Origin: Thermanaerothrix daxensis
Lineage (GTDB): Bacteria > Chloroflexota > Anaerolineae > Anaerolineales > Anaerolineaceae
Assembly: GCF_001306145.1 (NCBI RefSeq)
Contig: NZ_LGKO01000002.1
Coordinates: 620,001-684,000 of the forward strand
DNA: 64,000 nucleotides
Direction: 5' to 3'
Each line of letters begins with the position of its first letter. Position 1 is the stretch's first letter. Below the pieces are notes generated by a model. It was given only the letters and a program-made list of their open reading frames with translations, was not told where the DNA came from and made no database searches. The position numbers and the translations under genes are program-made. Of the stretch, positions 16,360 to 26,405 are shown piece after piece.

Positions 16360-16783
16360 GTATTTTGGCGGCTGTCGGTGAAAGCCGGCGGTGCGGTGCA
16401 AGTCCCACCGGTCGCAGTGAGAGCGTAGGCTGACCCGCCGAGGCTCTTGGAACCTTGACAGATGAGGCTGAAGCCACTGGGCGGACGCCGCGGATGGGTT
16501 CCCTTGTCCTCTCCGTGAGACAGGCCTACCCGGTCTGTCTCAATCCGCCACCCCGCAGAGTGCTTGAGGCGGTGCAAGTCCGCCGGGGTGATGTCCCGCA
16601 AGGGCAGAACTTTAACAACCGCATAGGCGGAAAGGGACGGGTACACCTCCTGGTCTCACGGTCTCCCTCTGCTGCTTACCGCTCGGTAGGCGGTAGAGCG
16701 AGACCGTGAGGCTCACCCTGCCGTACCAGGGCAATACACCCAATATTGCCCCGGGTACGGACGGGGCAAAAAGGAGGTTTACC
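16360..16783 (+). ncRNA. Long structured leader RNA upstream of the Rad52-like gene
   Basis: No good coding frame exists in these 424 bases, but many inverted repeats do. GAGACAG pairs with CTGTCTC (16517, 16535) and CTCACGGTCTC pairs with GAGACCGTGAG (16655, 16700), and the motif GGTGCAAGTCC occurs twice (16395, 16571). Near the gene, a stem pairing 16721-16736 with 16744-16760 shares bases with a stem pairing 16746-16753 with 16762-16769, just before the ribosome site at 16772. The two are mutually exclusive. This layout resembles a riboswitch or other regulated leader. The repeated motif recalls the cobalamin riboswitch core, but the B12 box is not evident, so I do not assign it. Confidence 0.45.
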
Positions 16784-17560
16784 ATGTCTCAGTTTGATTT
16801 CTCTCAAATCCTGGAGGCGCTCTCTGAGCCGTTCCCCTCACACGAGGTGGAGTTCAAGCCAGGCGCGACCAACCGTGAGAAGACCAAAGCGCTTGCGCTG
16901 GCCTACGTAGACAGCAGGCCATATATCCAACGGCTAAACCTGGTGTGTCCTGACTGGCAGGACGAGTACCAGGTGATGATGCTGCCGGATCGGGTGGTGG
17001 TGCTGTGCCGCTTGACCATCGCCGGGGTGACCCGTACGGGAGACGGTGAGTGCCTGCTGAGCGGCGGCGAGGAAGGCGAGCGGACAGAGCCCAATGCGGT
17101 TACGACCGCATCGGCGCAGGCCTTTAAGCGCGCGTGCGTGAAGTTTGGCTTGGGAGCGTACTTGTATGCTCTGCCGCAGGTGTGGTGTGACTACGATGCC
17201 CAAAAGCGCAAGATCGTCAACCCGCCGCAACTGCCCGAATGGGCGCTGCCGCCTGCGGAACGTCTGGAGAAAGCCACCAGCCGCGCCATCGAGCGCGAGG
17301 TGGAGGAGCACGGTGCCCAGCCACCTGAACCTGAGCCTGCCGCAGAGGAACTGCCGGAGCCCGGGGCATACAAACTGCCCTTCGGCAAACATAGCGGACG
17401 CACTCTGGCGGAACTATGGCAGAGCAAGGACGGGCAAGGCTATGTGCGCTGGCTGGCTGCGATGGATGGCAAGGGCTTTCAGCCCCGTAATCCCACTGAC
17501 CAACATGCTCAGCGCATGGCGCGCGCCTTCCTGACCTTGCAATCCGCCTATGCGGGCTAA
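16784..17560 (+). CDS. Rad52-like single-strand annealing protein with ExoX-like C-terminus
   Basis: The 258-residue protein carries a Rad52/DdrA-type annealing domain (about residues 1-160). It contains a VTTASAQAFKRACVKFG segment followed by LGAYLYALP, typical of phage and plasmid annealing proteins. A Pro/Glu-rich linker leads to a short C-terminal module (about 205-255), PFGKHSGRTLAEL, like the end of exodeoxyribonuclease X-type proteins. It likely anneals single-stranded DNA during recombination or after transfer. AGGAGG precedes the ATG at 16784; an upstream start at 16706 lies in the structured leader and is rejected. Two terminator-like hairpins follow. Confidence 0.75.
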   Translation: MSQFDFSQILEALSEPFPSHEVEFKPGATNREKTKALALAYVDSRPYIQRLNLVCPDWQDEYQVMMLPDRVVVLCRLTIAGVTRTGDGECLLSGGEEGERTEPNAVTTASAQAFKRACVKFGLGAYLYALPQVWCDYDAQKRKIVNPPQLPEWALPPAERLEKATSRAIEREVEEHGAQPPEPEPAAEELPEPGAYKLPFGKHSGRTLAELWQSKDGQGYVRWLAAMDGKGFQPRNPTDQHAQRMARAFLTLQSAYAG

Positions 17561-17574
17561 CCCCCTGCGGGAAC

Positions 17575-17602
17575 AGAGCCGGACTACCCAGTCCGGCTCT
17601 TT
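17575..17602 (+). terminator. Intrinsic terminator
   Basis: AGAGCCGGACT and AGTCCGGCTCT form a perfect 11-base stem with a 4-base loop followed by T-rich sequence. It ends the Rad52-like gene. Confidence 0.8.
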
Positions 17603-17631
17603 CCTTTCCTGTCAAGAGCGCCCAGTTGCCG

Positions 17632-17667
17632 AAAAAGAGGGCTTACCCAGCCCTCTTTTCTTTTTTT
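17632..17667 (+). terminator. Second intrinsic terminator
   Basis: AAAAGAGGGCT and AGCCCTCTTTT form a perfect stem with a 4-base loop, followed by a long T tract. It shares the TACC loop motif with the preceding terminator. Two terminators in series isolate the Rad52-like gene from the small RNA and integrase. Confidence 0.75.
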
Positions 17668-17676
17668 GCGCAAAAC

Positions 17677-17705
17677 TTGATTTTTTCCGAGATAACTGCT
17701 ATGAT
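17677..17705 (+). promoter_or_regulatory. Strong sigma70-type promoter
   Basis: TTGATT and TATGAT are separated by exactly 17 bases, with an AT-rich spacer start. The next transcribed unit is a short hairpin RNA, not a gene, which supports a dedicated small-RNA promoter. Confidence 0.65.
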
Positions 17706-17711
17706 AAAAGC

Positions 17712-17778
17712 GCTTCGACAGAGCATCCGTGAACTACGGAACACAAGAGAGGGCAGAAAAGCCCTCTCTTGTGTTTTT
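17712..17778 (+). ncRNA. Candidate small RNA of about 67 nucleotides
   Basis: A promoter ends at 17705 and a near-ideal terminator runs from 17741 to 17778 (14-base perfect stem, A-rich loop, five T). Between them is a 5-base hairpin (TCCGT, ACGGA at 17726-17740). No reading frame of useful size fits. It could be a free regulatory RNA controlling integrase or the annealing gene, or a leader that is almost always terminated. The unit is self-contained, which favours the first. Confidence 0.5.
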
Positions 17779-17944
17779 GCCGCAACGCGCCTTCACCGCG
17801 TTGCCTTCTCAGTCCCGCCGGTCTCCGCGGCGGGGCTGATTTGTCTTTGGGTATTAGTATAGCAAATTTTTTAACTTTCAGAGCCGTTTTGAGGTGGGAG
17901 AATCGCTCCTCGATACCAAAACTTACATCGTCGAGGAGGTAAAT
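17779..17944 (+). promoter_or_regulatory. Integrase leader with ribosome-site hairpin
   Basis: Base composition drops here from GC-rich to AT-rich. GCAACGCG and CGCGTTGC (17782-17804) form a hairpin, then an AT-rich stretch near 17855-17880 could hold a promoter. CTCCTCGA (17906-17913) is the exact complement of TCGAGGAG (17931-17938), which contains the integrase Shine-Dalgarno sequence, so the ribosome site can be hidden. Confidence 0.45.
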
Positions 17945-18811
17945 ATGATTACAAACAAAACCCCCACTGTCAAAGAATTGGTTGACGTATTTTTGGAGTC
18001 ACAAAAGGGTTTTATTTCAGATTCTACGCTGAGATGGTATGTCTTCTATCTGCGTCCCCTTGTGGCTCATCTTGGAGACAGAGAAACAAATTCTATAACT
18101 ACAAGCGACCTTATCAATCTGTTTCATTTGATGAGAACAGATGATCGTGAGCCTTATACCCTTTTTAATTTTATTAGAGGATGGAAAAGGCTGTTTCGCT
18201 GGGCAGTTGATGAGGGATACATTGCTATGAATCCAGCAAAAAAATTGAGGCGTCCGCCTCTTCCCCAGAAATCCCCGGCAGGAATTCAAGCAGAGGATTT
18301 ATCAAAAATGTTAGATGCGGCATCAAAAACAGGAACGCCGGAAAGGGATTTAGCGTTGGTTTTATTTGTAGCAGACACGGGTGTAAGATTAGGCGGTGTA
18401 GCCGGTCTCACCGTAGATCGCTTGGATATAAATAAGCGGCGTGCTATCGTGTTAGAAAAAGGGAGGGGAGGGCAAAAAGAGCGTGTGGTTTTCTTTTCTT
18501 CTCGCACTGCGATTGCCCTGGAGAACTGGTTAGAAAAGAGAGGGGAAACGGAAGATCAACGTGTCTTCTTGTTGAAGCCAAACGGAATTTACCAGTTGTT
18601 CAAACGATTGGCTCGCAAATCGGAAATAACTGGAAAATGGAACCCGCATTCTTTTCGTCACGCCTATGCCCGCAAATTGCTTAAGCAAGGTGTCAGTATC
18701 GGCGTGGTGAGTCATCTCATGGGACATTCCAATGTTCAGGTTACGATTGACTTCTACGGACGTTTTTCTCACGATGAACTTCAGGAAATCTACGATAAGA
18801 TCATGAACTAA
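17945..18811 (+). CDS. Tyrosine recombinase (integrase)
   Basis: This 288-residue protein has an N-terminal SAM-like core-binding domain (residues about 7-90) and a C-terminal catalytic domain. The catalytic set is visible: Arg in DTGVRLGG, HSFRHAYAR giving His-x-x-Arg, His in LMGHSN, and the nucleophile Tyr in DFYGRF. It should integrate and excise the element at a tRNA 3' end. The ATG at 17945 follows GAGGAGG; an upstream start would include the ribosome-site hairpin. Its base composition is clearly more AT-rich than the element's other genes, which suggests a separate origin. A tRNA fragment lies 60 bases downstream, the usual place for attR. Confidence 0.9.
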   Translation: MITNKTPTVKELVDVFLESQKGFISDSTLRWYVFYLRPLVAHLGDRETNSITTSDLINLFHLMRTDDREPYTLFNFIRGWKRLFRWAVDEGYIAMNPAKKLRRPPLPQKSPAGIQAEDLSKMLDAASKTGTPERDLALVLFVADTGVRLGGVAGLTVDRLDINKRRAIVLEKGRGGQKERVVFFSSRTAIALENWLEKRGETEDQRVFLLKPNGIYQLFKRLARKSEITGKWNPHSFRHAYARKLLKQGVSIGVVSHLMGHSNVQVTIDFYGRFSHDELQEIYDKIMN

Positions 18812-19490: not shown

Positions 19491-19841
19491 ATGAGAAATA
19501 ATTTGAAGTGGGTGATTGCAATAGGAACTGTAATTGCCTTCATCGTGCTGATGTTTGGATTGACGGTGTATTGGGGGTGGAGGTCATGGGGTTGTTGTGG
19601 CTGGGGAGGATGGGGGCCATGGGGAATCATGGGTCATGGCATGATGATGACCTGGGGTTGGTGGGTAATGTTTCTGGTTTTAGGGCTTCCTTTGTTGATA
19701 GCGATTGGAGGAGCTCTATTGATACAGCGATTAATCAGCACACCTGGTTCCGCTAAAGCAATCCATTGCCCTAATTGTCAACGATCAGTACAGGTGGATT
19801 GGAGACACTGTCCTCATTGTGGGACGATTCTAAGGCAGTAA
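19491..19841 (+). CDS. Small membrane protein with C-terminal zinc ribbon
   Basis: The 116-residue protein has two hydrophobic segments (about residues 8-28 and 56-82) with a Gly/Trp/Met/His-rich loop between them. A short C-terminal zinc ribbon follows (CPNC near residue 94 and CPHC near 108). The MGHGMMM loop could bind copper, which would suit the nearby CuA-type redox proteins, but this is inference. AAAGGAGG precedes the ATG. Similar short proteins with TM pairs and zinc ribbons are common but uncharacterised. Confidence 0.6.
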   Translation: MRNNLKWVIAIGTVIAFIVLMFGLTVYWGWRSWGCCGWGGWGPWGIMGHGMMMTWGWWVMFLVLGLPLLIAIGGALLIQRLISTPGSAKAIHCPNCQRSVQVDWRHCPHCGTILRQ

Positions 19842-20061: not shown

Positions 20062-20553
20062 ATGAGCCCAAGACAACACAAACGGAAATACCCGCAACAT
20101 GGAAAGGGAAGGAATAAACCAAGTTACGTTTATCTTATTATCGTCGGAGGAGGGATCATCCTTCTTTTGGCGATTGCTGGGTGGTTTGTTCAGAATGCAT
20201 CGGTAAAAATAGAGGGGACTCCTTCCATTGCCGTAGATCCATCCCAAATCAATTTTGGGGATGTGAAATTAGGCACCCCCTTGAGTTTTACTATCAAGGT
20301 GACTAATAGGGGCAACGGGATTTTAAAGTTCGAGGAAAAACCTTACATTGAGGTTTTGGAGGGATGTTGACCGCCCGGATTGACCATCGGTTCGATGGTC
20401 CTTAAGCCAGGCGAAAGCACCACGATTCGCTCTGCCGTGTTCATGATGCATGAAGGGATGGCAGGTCCGCATGACTTTGCTGTTCACTTGATCACGAACG
20501 ATCCTCAGCAGCCTAAACTTGTTGTCCATGTCCTCTCGAACTGGGTGCCCTAG
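20062..20553 (+). CDS. DUF1573-like membrane-anchored protein, probable selenoprotein (in-frame UGA as Sec103)
   Basis: The frame reads 102 codons, a UGA at 20368, then 60 more coding codons to a UAG. Residues 22-45 form a membrane anchor. After it comes an immunoglobulin-like DUF1573-type domain (INFGDVKLGTPLSFTIKVTN). The UGA falls in EGC-UGA-PPG, where a Cys-Cys pair would be natural. The sequence after it continues the same domain (MMHEGMAGPHDF, then HLITNDPQQP). A perfect 8-base hairpin with a GUU loop lies 11 bases after the UGA, matching bacterial SECIS spacing. A Cys-Sec pair suggests a redox or metal-handling role outside the membrane. The alternative is a nonsense mutation; selenocysteine genes are not in this window. 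Confidence 0.7.
20371..20400 (+). promoter_or_regulatory. Candidate bacterial SECIS element
   Basis: GACCATCG (20382-20389), loop GTT, and CGATGGTC (20393-20400) form a perfect 8-base stem directly downstream of the in-frame TGA. The distance from TGA to the apical loop is 19 nucleotides, inside the range known for SelB-dependent SECIS elements, and the loop has the expected G and U. Confidence 0.65.
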
Positions 20554-20603: not shown

Positions 20604-21224
20604 ATGATGAGACAATGGCGTCATTGGATTCCTTGGCTGCTTATGATGGGCTATAGTGTATGGGTCTTTGCCCCATTCCTGGCTCCGGTATTCATCGGGA
20701 TTGACTGGTTAACGGCAGCTAGAGGGATTTACTTCGTTTATTCTTTTTTCTGCCACCAATTGCCTGAACGCTCCTTTTTTCTTTTTGGTGAGAAGGCAAT
20801 GTATTCACTGGCTGAGACTCAGGCTGTTTGGGAGTATACAACCGATTCCCTTGGACTGCGTCAATTTTTGGGAACCCCCATGGGATGGAAAGCGGCCTGG
20901 TCAGATCGGATGGTGGCTTTCTATGCCAGCGTCTGGTTCTTTATGCTCTGGCGTTGGGGGGTGCGTAACAGAAAGACTTTGCGGGTTAATCCTAAAATGC
21001 TGATATTCTTATTGCCAATGGCGCTGGATGGAGCCTCCCATTTGCTCAGTGATCTGGAAAGTTTTGAACAGGGGTTTCGGGAGACCAACCAGCGGTTGGT
21101 CTTTTTAACCGGAAACACCTTGCCCTTCTGGTTTTATGAGGGAAACGCTTTGGGCTCGTTTAACTCGTGGATGCGCCTTGGTGAGTGGTGTAGCCAGCAG
21201 CCTGGGGAGTTGTGGAATTCTTAA
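20604..21224 (+). CDS. DUF2085 family membrane protein
   Basis: This 206-residue protein has an N-terminal membrane helix (about residues 8-28), the family motif FCHQLPERSFFLFGEK near 48-63, and further hydrophobic segments near 110-122 and 133-145. Members of DUF2085 are integral membrane proteins of unknown function, often near metal or redox genes. Two adjacent ATGs are possible starts. It follows the predicted selenoprotein by 50 bases and is probably co-transcribed with it. Confidence 0.7.
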   Translation: MMRQWRHWIPWLLMMGYSVWVFAPFLAPVFIGIDWLTAARGIYFVYSFFCHQLPERSFFLFGEKAMYSLAETQAVWEYTTDSLGLRQFLGTPMGWKAAWSDRMVAFYASVWFFMLWRWGVRNRKTLRVNPKMLIFLLPMALDGASHLLSDLESFEQGFRETNQRLVFLTGNTLPFWFYEGNALGSFNSWMRLGEWCSQQPGELWNS

Positions 21225-21316: not shown

Positions 21317-22012
21317 ATGGTAGCACGAATTTCTAAGCAGACCAGAATCCAAGTGCTCTTGGCGGATGATCATCGTGTTGTGCGAGCCGGTATTCGCCAA
21401 ATATTGGAAAGAGAAGCAGATATTCGGGTGATTGCTGAGGCCGAAGATGGTGAAGAGGCCCTGACGCTGATCGAAAAGCATAAACCCGATGTGGTCGTAC
21501 TGGATATTCAGATGCCCAAGATAAGCGGGATTGAGGTGACACATCGGGCGCGCATTCGTTTCCCAGAAGTGGGAATTCTGATCCTGACCGCTTATGATGA
21601 TACTCCCTATATCTTGGCCGTGCTACAAGCGGGGGCTAATGGCTACGTGCTGAAGACTGCCGATGCAAAAGAACTTGTTCAGGCTGTTCGAGATGTGTAT
21701 GAAGGAAAGTCGGTGTTGGATCCGACCATTGCTCGAAAAATTATGCCTGCCCTTTTTCAGCGTAGTGAACGTTTGATTGCTCCTCTGACCGAGAGGGAAC
21801 TAGAGGTTTTACGACTTGCGGCCAAGGGCTTTACCAATAAAGCCATCGGTGTGCAGTTGGGGATCAGCGACCGCACAGTGCAGGGACATTTGGGGCATAT
21901 CTTTGCCAAATTACAAGTCAATAGTCGGACTGAAGCCGTCATGCGTGCCATTGCATTAGGATTAATTCCCCAGCCGGCAGGTTTCCTGGGAGAAGACACC
22001 CCTTCATCATGA
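21317..22012 (+). CDS. NarL/FixJ-family response regulator
   Basis: The 231-residue regulator has a receiver domain (residues about 11-127) with acidic pocket ADDH at 16-19, phosphoacceptor Asp63 in VVLDIQMP, and a conserved Lys in VLKTADAKEL. A LuxR-type helix-turn-helix domain (about 155-215) follows with LTERELEVLRL. It should bind DNA when phosphorylated by the kinase encoded immediately downstream (ATGA overlap). Likely targets are the redox genes on either side, by position only. Confidence 0.9.
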   Translation: MVARISKQTRIQVLLADDHRVVRAGIRQILEREADIRVIAEAEDGEEALTLIEKHKPDVVVLDIQMPKISGIEVTHRARIRFPEVGILILTAYDDTPYILAVLQAGANGYVLKTADAKELVQAVRDVYEGKSVLDPTIARKIMPALFQRSERLIAPLTERELEVLRLAAKGFTNKAIGVQLGISDRTVQGHLGHIFAKLQVNSRTEAVMRAIALGLIPQPAGFLGEDTPSS

Positions 22013-23061
22013 AAAAGAGCACCACACTTCTCAGTGCTTCAAGTTTCCAGGCTCTGTTTTGGTTGGTATTGCCGATAACTCTGGTCTTGGTTTTGGTAGT
22101 TATTGGTAGCCTGGCTCTACACGAACAAGCAATGCGGCAACGTCTGCCTGAAGAGACCTGGGAGGCTGCCACGGATCCTGCTCTTGAACTCACATTAGTG
22201 GCACCATTGCTCCTGCTTGTGCCTTTAGCAGTGGCAGGGGCAGCCTTTTGGTTTGGTACCAAGCAGATTATTCGCCCCTTGCAGGCTTTGGAAAAACAGG
22301 CAACTGCTTTGGCTTGGGGGGATTTTGAATCAATCCGGCAACCGGTAGGGGGGATTGTGGAGATTCAGAACCTTCAGCAAGGGCTGGCTGAAATGGCCCG
22401 TAAAGTTCAGGCGTCGCAAGAAGGGTTACGTGATTACATTAACGCAATCACTACTGCCCAGGAGGAGGAACGTCGTCGCCTGGCCCGTGAACTCCACGAT
22501 GATACTATTCAGTCTCTAATTGCGCTCAAACATCGCGTTCAGTTTGCTCTTGATTCGGTCCGCGATCCGAGGAGCAGAAGGGTGCTCCAGGAACTTGGGG
22601 AGTTAGCGGAGAACACCATTGAAAACTTGCGTCGTTTGACGCGTGCCCTCCGCCCCATTTATCTTGAAGATTTGGGGCTTGTGACAGCGTTGGAAATGTT
22701 ATCTCGTGAAATTGAGCATGCCAGTGGTATTCGGGTTGGGTTTCAATGCATTGGGACGGAAAAACGCCTTGATCCACGCATCGAACTGTCCCTTTACCGC
22801 ATCGCTCAGGAGGCTTTGAACAATGTGCTGCGGCATTCGCGGGCGCAAGAAGCCCTCTTGACGATTGAATTTGGCGATCAGATCTGCCTGGAGATTCGAG
22901 ATAATGGGGTTGGCTTTCAGTTGCCTGCCAGCCTGACCGATTTTGCCACACGGGGACATTTTGGCCTTCTTGGCATGCGCGAACGCGCTGAACTAATTGG
23001 CGCCCGGCTTGAGGTGTTTTCGGCCCCGGGTGAAGGCACCCGAGTGCGGGTGAGGATATAA
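22009..23061 (+). CDS. NarX/DegS-type sensor histidine kinase
   Basis: The 350-residue kinase has two membrane segments (about residues 14-38 and 62-84) bounding a short external loop, a HAMP-like region, and the HisKA_3 motif RRLARELHDDTIQSL with the phosphorylated His near residue 166. The ATPase domain shows the N box AQEALNNVLRHS, DNGVGF, and GLLGMRERA. The sensing loop is only about 24 residues, so the signal may be sensed in the membrane. It forms a pair with the upstream regulator. It ends 15 bases before the convergent redox operon. Confidence 0.9.
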   Translation: MKKSTTLLSASSFQALFWLVLPITLVLVLVVIGSLALHEQAMRQRLPEETWEAATDPALELTLVAPLLLLVPLAVAGAAFWFGTKQIIRPLQALEKQATALAWGDFESIRQPVGGIVEIQNLQQGLAEMARKVQASQEGLRDYINAITTAQEEERRRLARELHDDTIQSLIALKHRVQFALDSVRDPRSRRVLQELGELAENTIENLRRLTRALRPIYLEDLGLVTALEMLSREIEHASGIRVGFQCIGTEKRLDPRIELSLYRIAQEALNNVLRHSRAQEALLTIEFGDQICLEIRDNGVGFQLPASLTDFATRGHFGLLGMRERAELIGARLEVFSAPGEGTRVRVRI

Positions 23062-23076
23062 CCCTTAATTTCAGAA

Positions 23077-24108
23077 CTAATGAGAGGAGGGGACAGTGGG
23101 GGGATGGAATGAACTGTTCCACGCGAAGTGATAAATATAGGCGATTAAAGCCTCAATCTGTTCTTGGGTAAAAATGGGGCCCCAATAAGGCATGCCTGTC
23201 CCCATACCGCCACGAATGATTTTTCCTTCGAGAAGGGCTGGGCTTGCCCCCAGCAGATAGCGGGGATTGCTAAAATCGGGCGGTCTGGTCCTCGTGCCAG
23301 AGAGGTGACTCTCGTGGGTGTACGCCGGAAGGCCACGCATCATCACACCATCCCCTTTGCCGGTTTCTCCGTGGCAGGCAGCGCAATTGGCCGAATATAG
23401 TTGTTGCCCCTCTGTCCAGGCCTGGGCAGAAGATAAGTGCTGCCAGAGCCAGGCTACAACATCCCACAATTCATCGTCACTCAGAGAGGCCAGGGTGGGT
23501 TCAGCGCGCAATTGCATCCAGAGCCTGGCTGGGCTGGTGGTCAGGTGGGTCTTTCGATCCAGCGCGTAAGCCGGCAGCTGATTAGCATACTGCGCACCAC
23601 GCTCTGGCATTGTAATCCGTGCGGGAATGACTTCTGCCAGATGAGGGGCATCGAGATCAAGCCCCAGCTCGAGGTACAGCGGTTGAGGTTCAGGTGTGGG
23701 GGCGGCGCTTTCACCGGTGACTTCGAGAATGCCTCGCATGCGCCAGTGGTTGGGACCGCACCAGCGGGTGCAGTAGAACGTATAGGTGCCGGGGTGGTCG
23801 AAGATGAGGGTGATTTCTGTAACCTCACCTGGATGGATTTCCACTGAGGGCTGATTTAGTTTACCAATGGCGAATCCATGGACGACATCTTCACTGGTGA
23901 AGCGTAGTTTCAAGGATTCGCCGACATGGATTGAAATATGATCGGGGTCCCAACCTCCACTTTCTGGCATGCGCGCATGAACTTCTAATATCCGGGACGG
24001 CTCCACGACCCTCGGGTAAAATTTGCCTATTAAGGGTATCGAAAAGGCCAGTGCAACCCCCAAAACCAGGATACTGCGAGCAAGAACTTCGTGTTTCATT
24101 GGTTTCAT
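23077..24108 (-). CDS. CuA-type cupredoxin fused to cytochrome c
   Basis: This 343-residue exported protein has an N-terminal membrane anchor (residues about 8-28). A cupredoxin domain like cytochrome oxidase subunit II carries a full CuA ligand set: His77, Cys113, Cys117, His121 and Met124. A c-type cytochrome domain with CAACH at 242-246 and a likely Met ligand in the C-terminal GGMGTGMP segment follows. It should pass electrons on the outer face of the membrane. The ATG at 24108 overlaps the stop of the upstream iron-sulfur gene, which decides the start. It is the last gene of a four-gene redox operon, but no oxidase subunit I or N2O reductase gene is adjacent. Confidence 0.8.
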   Translation of the reverse strand: MKPMKHEVLARSILVLGVALAFSIPLIGKFYPRVVEPSRILEVHARMPESGGWDPDHISIHVGESLKLRFTSEDVVHGFAIGKLNQPSVEIHPGEVTEITLIFDHPGTYTFYCTRWCGPNHWRMRGILEVTGESAAPTPEPQPLYLELGLDLDAPHLAEVIPARITMPERGAQYANQLPAYALDRKTHLTTSPARLWMQLRAEPTLASLSDDELWDVVAWLWQHLSSAQAWTEGQQLYSANCAACHGETGKGDGVMMRGLPAYTHESHLSGTRTRPPDFSNPRYLLGASPALLEGKIIRGGMGTGMPYWGPIFTQEQIEALIAYIYHFAWNSSFHPPTVPSSH

Positions 24109-25430
24109 CCAACTAATAACCACATCATGGAGATACCAACCCCTCCAATAAAGAAGAGCAATGGAACGACGGATCGGAGGGTTTCACCCTGGCGACAAGC
24201 AATGTTTGTGGACCAAAACATCCCAATTGCCAGGATGACTATTTGAAGAAGTGAGCCAAGGAATGGAACTTCACCTGGCCCAGGAGAGGTGCTGAGCCCT
24301 AGCAGGTTCCATCCCCATCCCAGCGGGTCAGAGATTACAGATGGAATATAAGTGAATTTGGTAAAGGCAAAATTAATGGTAAAAGCGATCCAGGCGGTCA
24401 GACCGAGCGGCAGCAGAATGGGACTGTAGTGGTTAAGGGCCCGTGGAAGGGATTGTGTGCTTCTCTGCAAGTTCAACGCAATGCTTACAGCGAGAGCGTA
24501 AAATCCTGGGATGAGGAAGATGGCAGTAACGAGGAAGGCAGTGGCAAATAACCACCAAGCAGGACTGCCAAGTGCATAGGCTGCAGATTTTAACGCTCCC
24601 CAAGGTCCTAGAAAAATAGCCGCATCTACCAGTGCCGTGGTGATCATTACCAACCCCAAGAAGGTTTCATCCAGATGCACCCTGCTGTTCAGGGTCATTT
24701 CGGCTCCCCAGGGACGTAGATTAACAGCGATGTTGTTGTAAGGACAGACGCGCAGGCATTCCATACATAGCCCACAATTAGCGCTGGATTTTAGGGCTAA
24801 TGGATACTGTCCCCAAGGACAGGCATGATAGCAGGTCTTTTCCGTATGAGTTGCACAAAGATATGTTTCTTTAACGCCGATCTTTGGGGGTGTTAGTTTG
24901 GCGTATAGTCCGGTGAACCCACCGATAGGACATAGGTAAAGACAGAAAGCCCGTCTTTCAAAAATTAGGCTGAGGATGGTAGCAAGGATAAATAATCCCA
25001 CCAGGATTAAGGCAGTGGCGTTAGGAGAGGTTAGGATTATGGCCCCAAACAAGCCAATCAGCAAAAAAGTGCCCACTTGCAACCAGTGACCTCGCAGGGC
25101 TTTGGGCCACGCCCTTCCCCTCAAAGTTTGTGGTCCCCGGGGGGATAAAATGCCCCGATTTTGCAACCACTCACCGGGTAGGGGAATGGGACATATACTG
25201 CACCAGGAACGCCCTCCCAATGGGATAAAAAAGAGCTTGAGGGCACTCCACCAGGCTATCCATACAAAGATGGTGGCAAAGTTATGGCTGCCTACCCGGG
25301 TGCCGAATAAACCGGCAAGAATGGTAAAGATCAGGCCAGCCAGAGCAATGGCACGGATGAGAAACTGTGGCCAACGATAGTGAAACAAGATGTTAAGGAG
25401 ACGATACTGGGTTAAATCAATTCGGTTCAT
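24105..25430 (-). CDS. NosR/NapH-like iron-sulfur membrane protein
   Basis: The 441-residue protein has many hydrophobic segments and several cysteine clusters. CSICPIP near residue 78 and CLYLCPIG near residue 160 match the CxxCP motifs of the NosR, NapH and CcoG group. A ferredoxin-like pair follows, CATHTEKTCYHACPWG and CGLCMECLRVCPYN (about residues 190-235). Family members move electrons from quinol to periplasmic reductases. It overlaps the upstream cupredoxin gene by 14 bases and the downstream CuA-cytochrome by an ATGA, so the three are made together. Confidence 0.8.
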   Translation of the reverse strand: MNRIDLTQYRLLNILFHYRWPQFLIRAIALAGLIFTILAGLFGTRVGSHNFATIFVWIAWWSALKLFFIPLGGRSWCSICPIPLPGEWLQNRGILSPRGPQTLRGRAWPKALRGHWLQVGTFLLIGLFGAIILTSPNATALILVGLFILATILSLIFERRAFCLYLCPIGGFTGLYAKLTPPKIGVKETYLCATHTEKTCYHACPWGQYPLALKSSANCGLCMECLRVCPYNNIAVNLRPWGAEMTLNSRVHLDETFLGLVMITTALVDAAIFLGPWGALKSAAYALGSPAWWLFATAFLVTAIFLIPGFYALAVSIALNLQRSTQSLPRALNHYSPILLPLGLTAWIAFTINFAFTKFTYIPSVISDPLGWGWNLLGLSTSPGPGEVPFLGSLLQIVILAIGMFWSTNIACRQGETLRSVVPLLFFIGGVGISMMWLLVG

Positions 25431-25929
25431 GGGCTGACCGCGTGGAAGTGCGGATGGGTTGGAAAAATCTACTCAGGGCGAGCAGGATTCCTAAACCTCC
25501 AAGTGCAGTGCCGCGCAGCAACGACATATTTGGACCCACCTGAAGCTTCCCAATCATGAAGGGGTGAAGGTTGCCACAAGTGATGGAACATCGAAAGCGG
25601 AAAACGCCGACCCGGTTAGCAGTAAAGGTGATCCTGGCGGGTTGTCCGGGTTCTGCTTTCAAGTTGATTGAATATCCATCCAGAGAGAGACCGTGGACAA
25701 CATCTGTGGATATCAGTTCAAGGGTGACACGATCACCGGGATTGAGGCGAATCTCCCCGGGTGTGAATTGGAAAGTCTGTGCCTCCACACGAATATGGCG
25801 ATCCGTGGGAGGCGGTGTGGGAAAAGGCAGAGGAAGCCAGAGAATTGCTCCAATGGTGATCATCAGGCTGCAATATTGTAAAAGCCCAAAGATTTTTTGG
25901 CGCCTGTTGATGCCTATTTGCGTAGCCAT
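25417..25929 (-). CDS. Membrane-anchored CuA-type cupredoxin
   Basis: This 170-residue protein has two membrane segments (about residues 14-34 and 135-150) around a COX2-like cupredoxin domain. The CuA ligands His79, Cys114, Cys118, His122 and Met125 are all present (FRCSITCGNLHPFM). It is a stand-alone CuA protein without cytochrome c, and a second CuA domain is encoded in the same operon. It could relay electrons from the NosR-like protein to the CuA-cytochrome. It lies 5 bases after the PCYCGC gene. Confidence 0.8.
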   Translation of the reverse strand: MATQIGINRRQKIFGLLQYCSLMITIGAILWLPLPFPTPPPTDRHIRVEAQTFQFTPGEIRLNPGDRVTLELISTDVVHGLSLDGYSINLKAEPGQPARITFTANRVGVFRFRCSITCGNLHPFMIGKLQVGPNMSLLRGTALGGLGILLALSRFFQPIRTSTRSAHEPN

Positions 25930-25934
25930 GGCTT

Positions 25935-26405
25935 TCAGCGCGGGGGAGTGTTAGGCGGACCGTACTGGGAGTAGATTCGATCAATGGTTGTTTGGATTTC
26001 TGATAACGATTTGCCCTCCCGCATTAGTCGCATGACATCCCGGGTAATGTCCACGCAGATGGAGCACCCCAATGCGTGGGAATCAAAAATAACTTCCCCT
26101 GATGAGGAGTTGATGGTTTCTACATAGCACGCGTAGTTTGAGGTATGCCCTATGGCATTGCATCCGCAGTAGCAGGGAATGTGTTGAAGAACTTCAGGAT
26201 TAGCCAGGGCAAAACGGTAAGCCTCTTGGACGGATATCGGCGCTTTTTGCACAGTTGGGGGCATAGCAGAGAGAGGTGCCATATCTAGATCGGCCCTAGA
26301 GGCGCCAGTCCCAGTACAGGCGCTCAGTGGGATTGAGATCATGGAGAGCAAAAGCGCCAGCAAGCCGGCAAACTTGGCATGAGACGAAGAATGATGTTGA
26401 GGCAT
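25935..26405 (-). CDS. PCYCGC-motif lipoprotein
   Basis: The 156-residue protein has a signal peptide ending in a lipobox (SIPLSAC, Cys near residue 30) and the PCYCGC motif near residue 79, which defines a small extracytoplasmic family. Further Cys residues in YACY and LGCSICVD give a Cys-rich, probably metal-binding surface. It is the first gene of the redox operon. A role in copper delivery to the downstream CuA sites is plausible but inferred. Confidence 0.75.
   Translation of the reverse strand: MPQHHSSSHAKFAGLLALLLSMISIPLSACTGTGASRADLDMAPLSAMPPTVQKAPISVQEAYRFALANPEVLQHIPCYCGCNAIGHTSNYACYVETINSSSGEVIFDSHALGCSICVDITRDVMRLMREGKSLSEIQTTIDRIYSQYGPPNTPPR

Follow-up and report, generated by a model that had tools for sequence, protein, structure and literature searches.

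A gene at 20062-20553 on the plus strand of the DNA analysed here, a 64,000-nucleotide stretch of the Thermanaerothrix daxensis genome that we call the window, very probably encodes a selenoprotein of 163 amino acids with selenocysteine (Sec) at residue 103, a conclusion drawn from sequence comparison without protein or selenium data. The product combines a membrane helix (residues 22-44) with a DUF1573/ASH-type beta-sandwich (about 52-163). The frame opens with ATG at 20062, closes with TAG at 20551-20553 and gives 163 residues if its lone in-frame TGA, codon 103 (20368-20370), is read through; in the plain ORF list the gene stops at residue 102. The site motif is L-E-G-C-U-P-P-G (codons GAG GGA TGT TGA CCG CCC), and Cys102 and Sec103, encoded by TGT-TGA at 20365-20370 on the plus strand, are the only Cys or Sec residues in the protein. 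Third codon positions take 54% of the substitutions before the UGA and 52% after it, shares near enough to equal that both halves look protein-coding. The initial annotation, which had described a 163-codon frame with a single UGA in EGC-UGA-PP and coherent protein on both sides, was therefore correct on both counts.

A hairpin kept in UGA genes and broken in Cys genes

At 20382-20400 on the plus strand, immediately downstream of the Sec codon, the strands GACCAUCG GUU CGAUGGUC form eight of eight possible pairs around a GUU loop (20390-20392) that starts 19 nt past the UGA, which is the 8-base hairpin, with its apex at 19 nt, that had been proposed. We take this hairpin to be the SECIS element on the evidence of pairing, conservation and covariation. 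Alone it folds with -10.5 kcal/mol, and none of 200 shuffles was equally stable. When the values for loop (GUU), stem (8 bp), distance (19 nt) and energy (-10.5 kcal/mol) were compared directly with the published bSECIS model, as given in the part of PMC13188914 available to us (Fig 2), they satisfied its constraints of a loop of 3-9 nt, a stem of 4-16 bp, a G in the first two loop positions, a distance of 16-37 nt from the UGA and an MFE of -7.5 or below. The 45-nt piece that includes the flanks is less striking (z -2.0, with 10 of 200 shuffles as stable, and z -0.7 to -1.6 in five relatives), so the SECIS case rests on conservation and not on energy. A scan of the whole window against Rfam gave no matches at gathering scores, and hence the hairpin falls under no known RNA family.

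To compare the stem across homologues, we collected 75 loci (the window, 63 loci from named records and 11 from relatives), of which 61 were distinct over 120 nt, 57 with UGA and four with TGC at the site. All eight pairs are kept in 25 of the UGA genes, seven in 30 and six in the remaining two; in the four Cys genes 1, 4, 5 and 5 pairs are left. At offset +14 within the 120 nt that surround the site, six or more of the eight pairs form in 57/57 UGA loci and 0/4 Cys loci; such a stem stands at any other offset in at most 40 of the 57. Codon usage in the UGA loci points the same way: wherever the commonest residue is kept, the stem codons are fixed (Thr ACC 39/39, Ile ATC 56/56, Gly GGT 56/56, Ser TCG 54/54), whereas outside the stem several codons are in use for conserved residues. 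The Cys locus L108 retains the peptide I-G-S-M with the codons ATT GGA TCT ATG, which break the stem. Diverged UGA genes use different codons and restore the pairing, as in GUCGUAG-GUC-CUACGAC of L145.

Covariation was assessed in an alignment of 33 chosen UGA rows against 500 shuffles. Two-sided changes occur in five of the eight pairs, 38 cells in all, with a covariation score of 0.386, and none of the shuffles reached this cell count, this score or the observed share of pairs. Two of the five measures did not rise above the shuffles, the number of double-change pairs being matched by 83/500 and the further pair types by 198/500. The outermost pair is weak (unpaired in 16 of the 33 rows), and 65.5% of cells still pair when the stem register is slid by +3.

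Sec machinery and distribution of the gene

The genome (3.0 Mb, 6 contigs) contains a tRNA-Sec (76.9 bits; called SeC with anticodon tca by ARAGORN) together with selA (532.9 bits), selB (342.6 bits) and selD (356.9 bits), and so holds all four of the components that the initial annotation had proposed to look for, including selA, selB and the tRNA-Sec gene (selC), whose absence would by its account have refuted the proposal. The selD gene (L112:1501-2433; G000:C1:770652-771584) has an in-frame UGA of its own in ACAG-UGA-ASK, a UxxK motif; SelD selenoproteins of the UxxK type are a known kind, listed in the accessible part of Table 1 of PMC13188914.

At the codon of interest, 59 of the 63 named-record loci have UGA and four (L104, L106, L107, L108) have Cys (TGC), and every homologue in this set thus bears Cys or Sec where that was anticipated. 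One of the two peptide patterns behind these loci has Cys at the site and the other is neutral; both miss diverged members, and since the Cys-bearing pattern should favour Cys forms, the bias runs against the result obtained. All 57 distinct UGA loci have a Cys codon before the UGA and read G-C-U-P at the site, with Pro as the following residue in 56 of them.

Searching the T. daxensis genome and 60 relatives, we found the gene in 11 of the 61 genomes, with exactly one TGA in 12 of 13 matches, the thirteenth being a partial piece. Both tRNA-Sec and selB score over the cut-off in 10 of the 11 carriers; in carrier G038, an assembly of 640 contigs, neither does, which counts against the selenoprotein reading. 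Presence of the gene is not significantly associated with tRNA-Sec (10/11 carriers versus 35/50 non-carriers, p 0.26) because most of the relatives use Sec anyway. A profile search of 400 Chloroflexota genomes gave matches in 21, spread over more than one order, with one TGA in 27 of 29 matches and none in two partial ones. The site could be read in 26 of the 27 single-TGA matches; the other, L152, is apparently frameshifted. Some record titles lie outside Chloroflexota (Acidobacteria L089, Actinomycetes L100, Pseudomonadota L061, Clostridiales L103), mostly metagenome bins that are possibly misassigned, and related loci are in any case not independent events.

For a tree, 10 of the 63 loci were omitted and 10 of the 29 from the phylum search were added. 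The nearest relative of the window gene is L049, labelled Thermanaerothrix (Anaerolineaceae). Cys forms occur in about three places, and L108 falls within a Sec group of good support (99/97), by which at least its Cys looks derived. The earliest-branching rows are all Sec, a pattern which suggests that Sec is the older state in the family; many deep forks are poorly supported and several branches are long. We rejected the idea that Cys forms are confined to Sec-less genomes, since two of the four Cys genomes (L104, L107) have tRNA-Sec; L106 and L108 have none over the cut-off.

Extra copies of the gene were seen in a few places. Broken ones occur in G047 (L021, L157) and G177 (L152, L156), among them a partial piece and an apparently frameshifted copy, which suggests duplication and decay. 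Contig DYHT01000004.1 carries two copies, L050 and L110, one reading GCU-PP and the other GCU-PL.

A distant DUF1573-type beta-sandwich

Alignment and structure prediction were carried out on 45 rows, the window protein and 44 of the 63 loci. The AlphaFold2 model (mean pLDDT 85.8) has a helix at residues 22-44 and beta strands from residue 56 on. In a fold search, 2qsv was the best realigned solved structure (Z 13.2, rmsd 2.0 over 103 residues). The next matches included ASH/PapD/HYDIN-type domains, and the matches listed contained neither an SCO nor a cupredoxin structure. The modelled fold is ASH/PapD-like, which says nothing on function. A sequence search of the PDB with E up to 1 returned only HYDIN, other ciliary and OCRL domains. 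Residues invariant in the 45-row alignment include C102, U103, P104, P105, M129, M133, H137 and H142, and H130 is nearly so; from this we infer that the conserved Cys-Sec, Met and His residues plausibly make up a soft-metal or thiol site.

The description of the protein as DUF1573-like holds through its relatives and through profile comparison; the window protein taken alone scores 15.9 bits against the Pfam model (PF07610), below its cut-off of 26.1. Six carriers were among the 31 genomes searched with this model: three score over the cut-off (39.1, 39.0 and 35.5), G001 reaches 21.7, and at E 0.001 the model matches nothing in G000 or G047. Aligned by hhalign with canonical DUF1573 proteins (probability 97.9, E 4.8e-13, 99 columns), the selenoprotein places E100 opposite the first Cys of C-G-C and Cys102 opposite the second, with Sec103 in a short insertion. 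The canonical motif is C-G-C in four of five rows and C-R-C in the fifth, and the selenoprotein has G-C-U instead. We conclude that the protein consists of one membrane helix followed by a distant beta-sandwich of the DUF1573 type. Canonical proteins (L114, L115, L116, L124) share the fold family and, in G002 and G041, PCYCGC neighbours but have two cysteines in C-G-C, no UGA and no strand resembling MMHxGMxGPHxF.

Relation to described selenoproteins

No described selenoprotein of the DUF1573 family had been known to the initial annotation, and here it has to be corrected. A DUF1573 selenoprotein with the motif UGC appears in Table 1 of PMC13188914, and OS_HP2 (pfam07610) is given the Sec motif UxC in PMC2398784, both sources having been available in part. 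The novelty accordingly lies in where Sec sits and in the lineage; the presence of Sec in such a fold is not in itself new. OS_HP2/NF041425 belongs to the same domain superfamily by profile comparison, and its Sec likewise lies in a cysteine-bearing loop; but our protein scores only 13.6 bits against NF041425 (cut-off 100), and its Sec follows the second Cys of C-G-C, whereas UGC/UxC in the partly available sources implies the first, an inference made without a direct alignment to OS_HP2. No NCBIfam model scored over its cut-off with the window protein.

The 2026 review (PMC13188914) counts 119 families and assigns proteins whose Sec stands elsewhere in the same domain to a subfamily of their own, a rule by which, so far as the accessible portion of the review goes, Sec in CU and not in UGC makes this a new subfamily. 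Among the CU entries in that portion, none has a DUF1573 domain. SaoL, HgcA, MbdU and the CopZ-family form 2, all in its Table 1, likewise have adjacent Cys-Sec in a metal context but are different families by their domain identifiers. Literature searches on Chloroflexota selenoproteins, PCYCGC, DUF1573 with copper, and selenoproteins with CuA turned up no title on this protein among the matches listed. Those on DUF1573 selenoproteins found reviews giving UGC only, and an earlier mention of CU is excluded no further than the available table of PMC13188914 reaches.

A copper electron-transfer module in the neighbourhood

Downstream of the selenoprotein gene on the plus strand lie a DUF2085 membrane protein gene (20604-21224; a neighbour in 15 of the 63 loci) and a two-component system made up of a LuxR-type response regulator (21317-22012; a similar regulator near in 33/63) and a HisKA_3 histidine kinase (22009-23061; a similar kinase near in 20/63). 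This system separates the gene from a core module on the minus strand (23077-26405) that comprises a fusion of cytochrome c with a cupredoxin bearing the CuA motif CTRWCGPNHWRM (23077-24123), a NapH-like membrane ferredoxin (24105-25430), a cupredoxin with the CuA motif CSITCGNLHPFM (25417-25929) and a Cys-rich PCYCGC protein (PF13798; 25935-26405). The PCYCGC protein scores 71.6 bits against the NCBIfam CYCXC family, under the model cut-off of 90.

The CuA and PCYCGC surroundings noted at the outset proved genuine, and near relatives keep them. Across the 63 loci, CuA-cytochrome c is a neighbour in 54, the NapH-like protein in 53, PCYCGC in 48, the cupredoxin in 48 and all four in 46; seven show none of the core genes, some contigs being short. 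Neither near-identical loci nor short contigs were removed before this counting. For the CuA-motif and cluster counts, we used a reduced set of 55 loci from which eight near-identical ones were excluded. In this set CxxxCxxxHxxM, which we take to be the CuA motif, is found in 42/42 cupredoxins and 45/46 CuA-cytochrome c proteins, the exception being a matched piece that ends earlier. Also near the gene in the 55 loci are CcdA (8), TlpA-like (6), HMA (9) and P-type ATPase-like (15) genes; in the last case the Pfam match is to the HAD domain of an incomplete ORF.

Ten diverged loci have PCYCGC in six, NapH in two and the CuA proteins in none, making PCYCGC the neighbour that diverged relatives retain most often. 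This indicates that PCYCGC is the recurring partner and that the CuA chain belongs to nearer relatives. Genome by genome, PCYCGC is present in 10/11 carriers versus 3/50 non-carriers (p 3e-8) and COX1 over cut-off in 10/11 versus 21/50 (p 0.006), with kinship ignored in both tests. SCO, which lies near COX1 in the T. daxensis genome, is over cut-off in 10/11 carriers and 20/50 non-carriers.

Several other features of the neighbourhood were recorded. Canonical DUF1573 genes (L114, L116, L124, L115; C-G-C) adjoin PCYCGC genes in G002 and G041, DUF1573 and PCYCGC forming a recurring gene pair, and in G008 a canonical DUF1573 gene and the selenoprotein gene are about 2 kb apart. Just upstream in the window, at 16706-18811, a recombination gene of the Rad52/22 family and an integrase of the phage type suggest an integrated mobile element beside the module. 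The gene at 19491-19841 encodes a small membrane protein that has a zinc ribbon at its C-terminus, and a similar gene is near in 6/63 loci.

Possible roles and alternative explanations

On comparative evidence only, SelB would recognize the hairpin right after the UGA and insert Sec at residue 103 beside Cys102. The product would be held by its one N-terminal helix, with the beta-sandwich probably outside the cytoplasm and carrying the Cys-Sec pair along with the conserved Met and His residues (M129, H130, M133, H137, H142). Together with the PCYCGC protein, it may handle thiols and copper for the CuA/NapH/cytochrome c electron-transfer module, either by keeping the cysteines of the PCYCGC and CuA proteins reduced or by passing copper to them. 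We tentatively favour such a role, that of a membrane-anchored Cys-Sec factor for copper loading or thiol reduction in PCYCGC/CuA proteins, as inferred and not shown. The nearby CcdA, TlpA-like, HMA and P-type ATPase-like genes fit thiol and metal traffic. We also infer a possible shared role with the SCO and PCuAC chaperones in the form of reduced S/Se plus Met/His ligands near CuA proteins. SCO, ordinarily the loader of CuA, has a thioredoxin fold with CxxxC, whereas the selenoprotein is predicted to be an all-beta sandwich with CU (one helix plus strands in the AlphaFold2 model) and co-occurs with SCO in 10/11 carriers. That co-occurrence led us to reject, as stated, the idea that the selenoprotein replaces SCO; taken with the diverged loci in which CuA genes are missing, it also argues against a strict CuA loader. 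Beta-sandwiches of the ASH/PapD type are often merely scaffolds, which counts against a copper role, as do the seven loci that show no core gene. In a wider form, which we put forward with still more reserve, a Sec-dependent copper/thiol factor acting with PCYCGC would mature or protect the CuA chain in Chloroflexota, Sec being ancestral and Cys derived.

The same selenoprotein might instead use its Cys-Sec pair to capture or detoxify a soft metal or metalloid (Hg, Ag, As or excess Cu), the CuA module being merely co-regulated. HMA, P-type ATPase-like and YtkA genes nearby are in keeping with this, as is a regulator resembling the ArsR type near 7/55 loci (judged from the neighbour list alone), and adjacent CU is found in the metal/organometal selenoproteins SaoL, HgcA and MbdU in the part of Table 1 of PMC13188914 at our disposal. 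We nevertheless think metal capture unlikely, given that the gene is linked most strongly to those for CuA electron transfer and PCYCGC and that no mer transport or reductase gene was recognised in the neighbour clusters, for which Pfam was run on 10 neighbour representatives only.

More doubtful still is a catalytic selenol that would reduce peroxides or disulfides with electrons from CuA, cytochrome c and NapH, as the terminal enzyme of the module. No other terminal enzyme was recognised in the conserved cluster, whose annotation is incomplete, and section 7 of the 2026 review, a source available in part (PMC13188914), considers most uncharacterised selenoproteins likely to be redox proteins; but the sandwich fold is PapD/ASH-like, and the heme-copper oxidase in 10/11 carriers could accept the electrons.

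The remaining alternatives deny the selenocysteine itself. Bacteria do read through some stop codons, and the UGA could in principle be decoded as a different residue by near-cognate read-through, for instance as Trp, but this is very improbable when 4/4 non-UGA homologues in the named-record loci have Cys and not Trp, when a covarying hairpin is kept in UGA forms and broken in Cys forms, and when the Sec machinery is complete. An interrupted gene, whether a pseudogene or two separate ORFs, is scarcely credible despite a plain ORF that ends at residue 102 and the broken extra copies in G047 and G177, for the same UGA recurs in 59/63 loci with coding-type substitution on both sides.

The gene thus represents a further selenoprotein subfamily, which is well supported and goes unnamed by current models, and it ties selenium to copper electron-transfer genes. 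Sec forms have been published for DUF1573 and also for PCYCGC-type proteins (OS_HP4), going by the available part of Table 1 of PMC13188914, which makes the function of this little-known pair testable. If the proposed role of the Cys-Sec factor in copper loading or thiol reduction is true, copper-site assembly would depend on selenium.
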